Assembly: GCA_943330855.2 (NCBI GenBank) | Contig: CALQJI020000003.1 | Location: 1 to 64,000 of the forward strand | Source of the DNA: Klebsiella pneumoniae | GTDB lineage: Bacteria; Verrucomicrobiota; Verrucomicrobiia; Limisphaerales; SXTU01 | Length of the DNA stretch: 64,000 nt | Direction of reading: 5' to 3' | Part shown: positions 9,174 through 63,771 of the stretch, piece by piece | How the letters are laid out: each line of letters opens with the position of its first letter | How positions within the stretch are numbered: position 1 is the first letter of the stretch | Notes under the pieces: generated by a model | The model's database searches: none | What the model saw: only the letters and a program-made list of their open reading frames with translations | What the model was told of the DNA's origin: nothing | Translations under genes and position numbers: made by a program

Positions 9174-9255
9174 GTTGCCCGCGAATCACGCGAATGGGGC
9201 AGGGGAATGCGGCCGGCTTGCGGAGGCGCGTTCATTTGCGTGATTTGCGGGCAAC
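9174..9255. repeat. Long palindrome, CCCGCGAATC family, overlapping the ybeY 3' end
   Basis: Arms 9174-9197 (starts GTTGCCCGCGAATCACG) and 9233-9255 pair with only a few mismatches. The 3' arm encodes the last YbeY residues and abuts its stop codon. Related copies lie at 16947-17005 and 63676-63765. Confidence 0.8.
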
Positions 9256-12843: not shown

Positions 12844-14181
12844 ATGAAGCCAATCGCAACTACAGCTCGTCGTTCTTTTCTCAAACAACTCGGCACCGCC
12901 GCCTTTGCCGCGCCGTTCGTCACGCGCGGTTTGATGGCCGCGTCGCCGAATGAAATGGTCCGCCACGCCAGCTTCGGCGCGAGCGGCATGGCGGGTGCGG
13001 ATTGGGGTGCGATCACCGGGCACAAGCAGGTGAAGTTCGTCGCGGTCGCCGAGGTGGATACGGCACGAGCGGAGGCGGCGAAGAAGAAGTTTCCCGAGCT
13101 GAAGGTGTATCAGGACTGGCGCGAGATGCTGGACAAGGAGCACAAGAACCTCGATTGCGTGAACGTCTCCACGCCCGACCACATGCACGCGCCGATGGGC
13201 ATGAGCGCGATGCAACTCGGCTTGCACGTCTATGGCCAGAAGCCGCTCACGCACGATGTGTATGAGTCGCGCCGGCTGACCGAGGTAGCACGCGAGAAGA
13301 AGCTCGTGACGCAGATGGGCATCCAGGTCCACTCCAGCTACGAGTATCGCGTCGCGGTGCAGCTCGTGCAGAGCGGCGTGGTCGGCAAAATCAAAGAGGT
13401 CCACACCTGGAGCAGCAAGAAGTGGGGTGACCCCGCGCCGCGTCCGGACAACACCGACCCGGTGCCCGCGAACTTGAACTGGGACCAGTGGCTCGGCGTG
13501 GTTTCCGAGCGGCCCTTCATCGGCGGCGGTTACTACCATCCCGGCAATTGGCGCAAGCGGCTCGATTTCGGCACCGGCACGTTTGGTGACATGGGCTGCC
13601 ATATTTACGACCCCGTCTTCAAGGCGCTCGGCGTCACTGCGCCGCTCACCGTGCGCAGCGAGGGGCCGCAGCCCAACGCACACAACTGGGCCAACGACGC
13701 CATCGTCCACTACGTCTTCCCCGGCACGCCCTTCACCGACGGCCCGACGGTGAAGGTGACGTGGTATGACGGCAGCCAGCGTCCGCCGGCGGACATCATC
13801 GCGCTGCTCGGCAAGGTGAAGCAGCCGGACCAAGGCTCCATCTTCATCGGCACCAAAGGCATCATGGTGCTGCCGCACGTGAGCAAGCCCATCCTGTTGC
13901 CTGAGGAAAATTTTAAGGACTTCGTGTTGCCGAAGCTGGACGCGGTGAACCACTGGCATTCGTTCGTCGAGGCCGTGCGCGGCAACGGCAAGACCTCCGC
14001 GAACTTTGACTACGCCGGCCCGCTCACGGAAACCATCCTGCTCGGCGGCATCGCGTCGCGCTTCCCGAAGACGACGCTGGAGTGGGACGCGAAGGCGCTG
14101 GCGTTCAAGAACGTGAAGGAGGCGAACCAGTATGTGCGCCGCCCGTATCGCAAGGGCTGGGAAGTGAAGGGGTTGAGTTGA
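12844..14181 (+). CDS. Tat-exported Gfo/Idh/MocA family oxidoreductase
   Basis: 445 residues. A twin-arginine signal (ARRSFLKQLGTAAFAAPFV) leads the protein, so it is predicted to be folded with cofactor and exported to the periplasm. The Rossmann domain retains a variant Gly-rich loop (FGASGMAG), and DCVNVSTPDHMHAPMGMSAM and QKPLTHDV match the nucleotide and substrate sites. The C-terminal Gfo/Idh fold carries DMGCHIYDPVFKALG. Such exported paralogues are numerous in Planctomycetes and Verrucomicrobia and act on sugars or sugar derivatives; the substrate is unknown. Confidence 0.9.
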   Translation: MKPIATTARRSFLKQLGTAAFAAPFVTRGLMAASPNEMVRHASFGASGMAGADWGAITGHKQVKFVAVAEVDTARAEAAKKKFPELKVYQDWREMLDKEHKNLDCVNVSTPDHMHAPMGMSAMQLGLHVYGQKPLTHDVYESRRLTEVAREKKLVTQMGIQVHSSYEYRVAVQLVQSGVVGKIKEVHTWSSKKWGDPAPRPDNTDPVPANLNWDQWLGVVSERPFIGGGYYHPGNWRKRLDFGTGTFGDMGCHIYDPVFKALGVTAPLTVRSEGPQPNAHNWANDAIVHYVFPGTPFTDGPTVKVTWYDGSQRPPADIIALLGKVKQPDQGSIFIGTKGIMVLPHVSKPILLPEENFKDFVLPKLDAVNHWHSFVEAVRGNGKTSANFDYAGPLTETILLGGIASRFPKTTLEWDAKALAFKNVKEANQYVRRPYRKGWEVKGLS

Positions 14182-16946: not shown

Positions 16947-17005
16947 CCCGCGGATGACGCGGATGGAGTGAACTGCCATCCGCGCCAATCCGCGTTATCC
17001 GCGGG
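16947..17005. repeat. Palindrome, CCCGCGGAT variant of the CCCGCGAATC family
   Basis: Arms 16947-16964 (CCCGCGGATGACGCGGAT) and 16988-17005 pair 17 of 18. It sits between two AIM24 genes. Confidence 0.75.
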
Positions 17006-18384: not shown

Positions 18385-18515
18385 GAGCTGGATGAGAGTG
18401 GATCAGGGCGGTTATGTGCGCAGAGGTTGCCAAGACTTCCCACGCGAAGGCAAGCAGGCAGCGGCAGGCAGCGGCGAGGCTATCCCTCAACTTTCTGATT
18501 TTCGGGGAAGATTGA

Positions 18516-18646
18516 TTAGCCACAGATGAAACACAGATGAAAAACTGCGGTGGGTAGCCGAGGTAAACTAGGCTGCCAGACGACTTCACTCTTCGTCCGC
18601 AAACCTTGCCTTATCCGCGTTTCATCTGTGTTCCATCCGTGGCTAA
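18516..18646. repeat. Two-armed CACAGATGAAACACAG palindrome
   Basis: Left arm 18516-18543 (TTAGCCACAGATGAAACACA) and right arm 18613-18646 (ending TTCCATCCGTGGCTAA) are inverted around about 70 bp. With the terminator it fills most of the 348-bp gap 18385-18732, where I see no gene. Confidence 0.75.
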
Positions 18647-18683
18647 AGAATTCCTCTGGGAAAGTGTGGGCTGGAAAAACGAA

Positions 18684-38520: not shown

Positions 38521-38527
38521 GGGTCGG

Positions 38528-38597
38528 GTAGCCGCCGAGGCGCGGAGGTGGATTCGGGTTCGGGCGGATTGGTCCGCCTCCTGACCTCGGCGGTTGC
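38528..38597. repeat. Two-armed GTAGCCGCCGAGG palindrome
   Basis: Arms 38528-38552 and 38573-38597 (ending CCTCGGCGGTTGC), 8 bp after the stop of the surface-protein frame. It may act as its terminator. Confidence 0.8.
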
Positions 38598-38682
38598 GGC
38601 AGATTTAGCAGCCACGTGTGTGGTTGCGACGGGCTTCAGCGGCAATAAACATTCGTGCGCCCGCTGACGCCCGTGCTTAATT

Positions 38683-39004
38683 TATGGAGTCCGGCGGCAG
38701 AGCGCTGCGCTGGCGCCGCCGGGGGAGGGGAGGCCGAAGTTTGGGCCACAGATGGCTACAGATTAAAGACAGATGTGGCAAGCAAGGCTCAATAAGGAGA
38801 GCAGGAAGGCAGGAGTGTAAACCAAGACCCGCCCGGACTGCCTCCCATTCTTGCCTTCCTGCTCTCCTTATAAACTTCCTTCCCTCCCATCTGTGTTTCA
38901 TCTGTGTCCATCTGTGGCTCAGACACGGGGGGTTGGTTGCCGATGGCAGCACGCGTTTGCGCCGAAAGCGGGGTCGCCCCTGCGCTCGGCCACCGCACTC
39001 CATA
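38683..39004. repeat. Three concentrically nested palindromes
   Basis: Outer arms 38683-38720 (TATGGAGTCCGGCGGCAG...) and 38971-39004. Middle arms 38744-38775 (GGCCACAGATGGCTACAG...) and 38888-38919, of the CACAGATG family. Inner arms 38793-38817 (TAAGGAGAGCAGGAAGGC) and 38846-38870, 23 of 25 paired. With the preceding palindrome this accounts for the 486-bp gap 38521-39006, in which I see no gene. Confidence 0.8.
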
Positions 39005-39006
39005 GG

Positions 39007-63626: not shown

Positions 63627-63675
63627 AGAGGCTGGCTGGTTTCTGACGCTACGATGAAAAGGAAGCAGGTAGGTT

Positions 63676-63765
63676 GGCCCGCGAATCAAGCGAATGGACG
63701 CGAATGGAGGCGGGGAGTGGGGGTATCTGGTTTTGATTCGCGTTCATTCGCGTGATGCGCGGGCC
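63676..63765. repeat. Long palindrome, CCCGCGAATC family
   Basis: Arms 63676-63705 (GGCCCGCGAATCAAGCGAAT...) and 63736-63765 pair 27 of 30, in the 145-bp space between threonine synthase and the carrier gene. Confidence 0.85.
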
Positions 63766-63771
63766 ATCAAC

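Follow-up and report, generated by a model that had tools for sequence, protein, structure and literature searches.

The nested palindromes lie between two converging genes, one coding for a cohesin-domain protein and the other for an alpha/beta-hydrolase-like protein (Table 1), in the window, that is, the whole stretch of 64,000 nucleotides that was analysed. The earlier note had described three unlike inverted-repeat pairs nested at 38683–39004 with a fourth palindrome alongside, and this layout is confirmed by an inverted-repeat search and by local alignment. The middle arms (37 nt) are 84% complementary and the inner arms (26 nt) 92% complementary. The outer pair is too weak for the ungapped threshold of the inverted-repeat search and is shown instead by local alignment, with 28 matches out of 37 between 38682–38722 and the reverse complement of 38965–39006, a score that none of 5000 random pairs reaches; taken singly, the two outer arms are both REP-like hairpins. 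When the folding check that had been suggested is made, a single strand of the nested segment folds at −92.9 kcal/mol (z = −8.85).

Table 1. Genes, palindromes and single arms at the locus and elsewhere in the window
Feature	Position	Strand	Sequence	Remark
Left gene, cohesin-domain protein, 1081 aa	35275–38520	+		
Fourth palindrome, a REP dimer with GTAG tag, next to the stack	38528–38597	.	GTAGCCGCCGAGG...CCTCGGCGG	
Terminator-like hairpin of the upstream cohesin-domain gene	38606–38680 (hairpin about 38628–38670)	+	GACGGGCTTCAGCGG...CCGCTGAAGCCCGTTTTCTTT	
Outer family, left arm, REP-like hairpin	38683–38720	+	TATGGAGTSCGGYGGC...	Other copies: L009, L010, L017, L027
Middle family, left arm	38739–38775	+	AGCCACAGATG words	Matches GxxExxY terminal repeat in L301
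Inner family, left arm	38792–38817	+	ATAAGGAGAGCAGGAAGGCAGGAG	Matches GxxExxY terminal repeat in L332
Inner family, right arm	38846–38871	-		
Middle family, right arm	38888–38924	-	CCACAGATGGACACAGATGAAACACAGATG	
Outer family, right arm	38971–39004	-		Ends at stop codon of converging gene
Right, converging gene, alpha/beta-hydrolase-like, 377 aa	39007–40140	-		
Solo copy of the middle family	18511–18651	.		
Solo palindrome	16947–17005	.	GCGGATAACGCGGATGACG	Arms match GxxExxY terminal repeat of L354

The fourth palindrome, whose arms are placed at 38532–38552 and 38573–38593 by the inverted-repeat search, has the GTAG terminus, the short stem and the dimer arrangement of a GTAG REP dimer, and we class it as such. 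Its family (GTAGCCGCCGAGG...GGCGGCTAC) has 25 copies in 1.26 Mb of the same genome; in relatives, the spot is occupied by other palindromes, or by none. The terminator-like hairpin and a small AGCAGCCTCGTGTGAGG palindrome within 38606–38680 are conserved downstream of the cohesin-domain gene at six loci in relatives. The stack abuts the 3' side of this hairpin, and at its other end it reaches the stop codon of the converging gene. The middle family does occur a second time in the window, as had been claimed for 18516–18646, where we find a solo copy with slightly wider limits. A GCGAATCACGCGAATGAACGCGAAT word palindrome is also present twice in the window (9174–9255 and 63675–63766).

Partial stacks and orthologous sites

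The window belongs to contig C3 of a 5.4-Mb assembly in 153 contigs, about 86% complete, of which 1.26 Mb was sampled in stretches; its nearest named relatives place it in the Verrucomicrobiota. This sample contains 173 inverted repeats of comparable strength, versus 3 in 0.64 Mb of shuffled sequence, which excludes chance as their origin. They fall mostly into about 20 families, and 132 of them lie in the intergenic DNA, which makes up 11% of the sequence. The flanks that remain around the elements have a median length of only 64 nt, and several stacks directly adjoin stop codons.

The layers of the window stack are found in every partial combination elsewhere in the genome. The outer family occurs alone (L027) or with the middle family and no inner unit (L009, L010 and, with another spacer, L017); the middle family occurs alone (L012, L014, L022) or with the inner family in six or more places (L011, L013, L016, L018 and L019 among them); the inner family occurs alone at L028. 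The middle family also hosts other guests, namely two palindromes at L021, a GGAGCGCGG dimer at L143 and a further guest at L150. The spacer between the outer and middle arms is common to L009, L010 and the window, which shows that outer and middle were copied as one unit, and among these three only the window copy has the inner unit. Once the inner unit is removed, the middle loop of the window aligns, in inverted orientation, with the loop of L009, which has no insert (p about 0.001 by permutation); the L009 loop is a paralogous empty site for the inner unit. Comparison of L009 with L010 shows the middle loop in opposite orientations with respect to the outer element, as arm-to-arm recombination would give. 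At L333, a middle element contains two near-identical inner copies and a fragment of the outer family, apparently by a recent internal duplication.

Some two-layer palindromes were duplicated as one, as with outer plus middle at three places and with a different two-layer type in many copies. A palindromic family of about 170 bp (L021:325–490; L313–L326), to which the guest in L021 belongs, has RCCCGAACTCCGAAATGG ends and inner CGCGAAAGGGCGCAAAG arms; there are tens of copies in G008, several in the genome of the window and none in the window stack. Two nested palindromes form a single unit in this family, which shows that a nest is in some cases one unit. Most copies have a direct repeat of 3 bp, TNA, on both sides (TCA in L021); this duplication, left by the insertion, recalls elements of the IS5 group.

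Orthologous intergenic sites vary in the same modular way. Between grx and lipA, the genome of the window has three nested palindromes, that is, a middle element with two further palindromes in its loop, while G009 and G010 have the middle element alone with an empty loop of 29 nt; in G005 it is middle plus inner, in G008 a version that has degraded, and G002 carries a nested pair of unrelated palindromes, while the site is empty in five species. The livH–livM and dppB–dppC sites hold different families or none in sister species. Between dppC and dppD, there is a GxxExxY element (see below) in G001 and G006, a solo palindrome with a guest in G002 and G004, middle plus inner in the genome of the window and in G005, a scar in G009 and nothing in G008. 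In the genome of the window (L168, about 13656–14080) and in G006 (L284), the palindromic site that follows dppC contains or adjoins a reading frame for a ParD-like antitoxin.

The order of the layers is not fixed. A computed search finds an inner-family palindrome that encloses a middle-family one in G008 (L330), and the same reversal is seen by eye in G005 (L328), where the inner family also encloses two further palindromes at L327. From one species to another, the two families change in copy number independently of each other, G008 having 91 inner arms and 3 middle arms (in the ACAGATG form). These separate copy numbers and the reversed order are contrary to what the earlier note had named as its refutation, arms that always occur together, as far as the middle and inner families are concerned.

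The idea that the nest was built by sequential insertion is thus largely borne out, by independently mobile families, by partial stacks and by orthologous hosts that lack the guest, except that some stacks have multiplied as one unit. The empty sites that it calls for exist at grx–lipA and, as a paralogue, in the loop of L009, but the exact stack of the window has no clean one: in relatives, no element is present at the orthologous 3' end of the converging gene, and the gene has other neighbours there. The nesting order had been read as a record of relative age; since it is reversed at other loci and some stacks were copied as units, it is only a partial clock, valid within one stack. We conclude that it is mostly right to regard the middle, inner and outer palindromes as independent mobile families whose nesting arises by insertion.

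GxxExxY genes between the same repeats

At L332, a pair of inner-family repeats encloses an open reading frame that matches TIGR04256 (GxxExxY) with E = 1.4e-37, and at L301 perfect 31-bp repeats of the middle family surround another TIGR04256 gene. L379 (middle) and L378 (inner) are further such loci, and both families qualify as GxxExxY-associated. The elements that bear the gene measure about 420–520 bp and have GxxExxY as their sole gene. The arms of these word-type families are about 30 bp long, consist of roughly 10-bp words and face each other; their ends are palindromic and T/A-rich, and no direct repeat indicating a target-site duplication was seen.

The association extends well beyond these loci. 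Inverted repeats within 250 bp of the gene (E ≤ 1e-3) flank 50 of 72 GxxExxY genes of the order versus 2 of 70 control genes, the tested GxxExxY loci being the best-scoring ones and not a random draw, and all genomes being draft or metagenome assemblies. A second sample gives 16 of 31 loci (30 phylum-wide and one on a viral contig), and shifting the search window by 850 bp to either side reduces the count from 29/46 to 0/46. Between about one third and one half of GxxExxY genes have no detectable repeats. Across the phylum, 104 of 195 sampled genomes have GxxExxY matches, and a single genome may have as many as 12. Between genomes, similarity of the repeats is correlated with identity of the proteins (Mantel r = 0.446; maximum of 2000 permutations 0.113): as judged from sequence comparison, the repeat family tracks the GxxExxY protein clade. 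In pairs with 62–92% protein identity, the repeats are mostly 88–97% identical while fourfold sites are only 21–57% identical (near saturation), which indicates that repeat and protein are under joint constraint and that the repeat is not merely recent.

Among the 132 intergenic palindromes sampled in the genome, 36 have arms that match a GxxExxY repeat and are correctly oriented, versus 2 and 0 in the controls, and these 36 include the middle and inner arms of the window. Regarding the inner family, arms are most numerous in the two species that carry a GxxExxY gene of this type (91 and 53, followed by 31). For the middle family, gene presence tracks copy number poorly: G009 has the gene but only 15 arms, and in G004 and G010 middle-family copies are present while no GxxExxY gene was found. 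The single GxxExxY gene in the assembly of the window's genome (C26:41915) has CACAGAG repeats, of which solo palindromes exist at L170, L206 and L212; no partner gene of the middle or inner family was found in this assembly, which is about 86% complete. Cognate genes are present in the sister species G005, G008 and G009.

The columns G, G, E, Y, D, K, N and F are near-invariant in 70 GxxExxY proteins, and the match to PF13366 has E = 1e-37. The family (TIGR04256/PF13366), which is assigned to the PD-(D/E)XK nuclease superfamily, shows the E, D and K motif of these enzymes, and is predicted to have nuclease activity. A single-sequence structure model of the relative from the viral contig was unusable (pLDDT 32), there is no credible solved structure among the sequence relatives, and further scans of viral contigs found no other relative. 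Libraries of defence and phage families gave no match. In the literature searched, mainly open-access journal papers, GxxExxY is mentioned in two papers only, both times incidentally, and we found no assigned function and no link of GxxExxY or PF13366 to repeats; the repeat words gave unrelated matches only.

The outer family is of another kind. It has the layout of a REPIN, with two REP-like hairpins that are inverted and dispersed (L009, L010, L017, L027), and we call it REPIN-like only, since no cognate RAYT flanked by the same repeat was found among the Y1 genes of the genome or at 30 Y1 loci of relatives. Two Y1_Tnp genes are present in the genome, and many in relatives. The two (L154 and L155, at G000:C91 and C18) have their own REP dimers on both sides (GTAGTCGCAACCTTCAGG and GGAGCGCGGCRTTCATGCCGC), and the GGAGCGCGGC repeat around the gene at C18 looks like the outer family but does not belong to it. 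A Y1 transposase as the partner of the middle and inner families was rejected, none of the 30 Y1 loci of relatives being flanked by their arms.

Proposed mechanism, rival readings and known systems

The explanation that we favour, with a probability of about 0.6, is that at least three palindromic elements, none of them autonomous, make up the stack, and that those of the middle and inner families were mobilised by GxxExxY-type elements. The palindromes would have entered one another's loops between the two converging genes, the outer one being REPIN-like and the middle and inner ones belonging to word-type families. We propose that the middle and inner palindromes are non-autonomous copies of GxxExxY elements, in a system that would resemble REPIN-RAYT with a different enzyme. 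The GxxExxY nuclease would recognise its own terminal repeat, act on DNA or on the extruded hairpin, and promote the copying of complete elements and of palindromes without a gene to places between genes, among them the loops that resident palindromes expose; finished stacks could later be copied as one unit. The role of GxxExxY as mobilising enzyme, catalysis included, is what we infer from sequence. The broader proposal, that GxxExxY (PF13366) proteins are the enzymes of widespread, undescribed minimal elements which spread gene-less palindromes and target hairpin loops, so that concentric nests form, has in our opinion even chances of being correct.

Hairpin loops may indeed be preferred targets. 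The loops of strong palindromes contain 19 further inverted repeats in 10.0 kb, versus 26 in 86 kb of flanks, where shuffled sequence leads one to expect 0.4 and 6.4, respectively; these counts are small and inflated by composites. No intergenic region of the sample has two strong palindromes side by side, and a looser threshold gives 6 nested versus 2 side-by-side pairs, so few that the preference rests on a handful of pairs. It may be that nesting is instead a by-product of selection, insertion taking place anywhere between genes and being harmless only in the loops of existing palindromes, because the flanks carry terminators, promoters and start sites. The concentration of palindromes in the intergenic 11%, the short flanks and the stacks that touch stop codons all agree with this, but about 14.5 side-by-side pairs would be expected by free length (9 if insertion is uniform per region) where there are none, in a comparison that again involves few pairs. 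We regard this as a serious possibility, although at somewhat less than even odds, and it is compatible with the explanation that we favour.

The other readings are less probable. It is unlikely that GxxExxY genes are passengers, for instance defence or toxin genes, in palindromes moved by another enzyme such as a Y1 transposase: such genes are available in the genome and its relatives, and the loops also hold other genes and palindromes, but the Y1 genes of the genome are flanked by other repeat families, those at 30 loci in relatives not by middle or inner arms, neither defence nor phage libraries recognise GxxExxY, and the coupling of clade to repeat and the conservation of the repeat are not expected of a passenger. 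We consider it very unlikely that the palindromes are immobile RNA signals (terminators or mRNA stabilisers) built in place under selection, since the same orthologous gap holds unrelated families, or none, in sister species and a separate conserved terminator-like hairpin is already present, even though the predicted hairpins are strong and lie at gene ends and in operon gaps. That 38683–39004 is one unit with several stems, and not a set of layers, is likewise very unlikely: the segment does fold as one hairpin, the spacer between outer and middle is shared in three places and another two-layer palindrome was copied as one, but every sub-combination is found separately, copy numbers of the families differ between species and the order can be reversed. 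This reading is already contradicted for middle versus inner, and may hold for an outer-plus-middle composite.

REPIN-RAYT systems are REP dimers moved by Y1/HUH tyrosine transposases. What we describe has in common with them the many gene-less intergenic palindromes, the few cognate enzyme genes with the same flanking palindrome and the tie between clade and repeat; on the contrary, the putative enzyme belongs to the PD-(D/E)XK superfamily and not to HUH/Y1, and the arms of about 30 bp are made of 10-bp words without a GTAG tag. Because the enzyme family differs, the GxxExxY system is not a member of REPIN-RAYT. Like MITEs, the palindromes are short and gene-less and share inverted ends with gene-bearing elements; unlike MITEs, the word-type families have no target-site duplication that we could see, while one other guest family has TNA duplications. 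Rpn proteins are PD-(D/E)XK members, and we know of no flanking repeats of this type around their genes. These YhgA-like proteins (PF04754, a different Pfam family from PF13366 of GxxExxY) form a family of recombination-promoting nucleases annotated as transposase_31 (PMC5350276).

GTAG REPs are known in the PVC group, and TIRtrons/TIRYTs have long terminal repeats around tyrosine transposases (PMC3733652). The latter resemble GxxExxY elements in having a small gene between long inverted repeats, together with dispersed copies of the repeat, but the gene family is another one and no Y1 gene was found between the arms studied here. Nesting as such has a precedent, since REP dimers inserted in palindromes have been reported (A. 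variabilis GTAG-15 and H. neapolitanus CGTC-1; PMC3733652), and insertion sequences that target REPs have also been described (PMC1525189). In all these cases an element is inserted within a palindrome; they concern one REP family and one target, whereas here many unrelated families are nested in several orders and up to three levels.

The link between layers of the stack and the ends of GxxExxY elements suggests an unrecognised way in which bacteria spread short DNA hairpins. If this link is true, it would give a role to the common GxxExxY proteins, account for a large class of word-like repeats that are so far unexplained in environmental genomes, and show that a life of the REPIN-RAYT type can also be based on a second enzyme, unrelated to the first, the nests being a partial natural record of the order of insertion.
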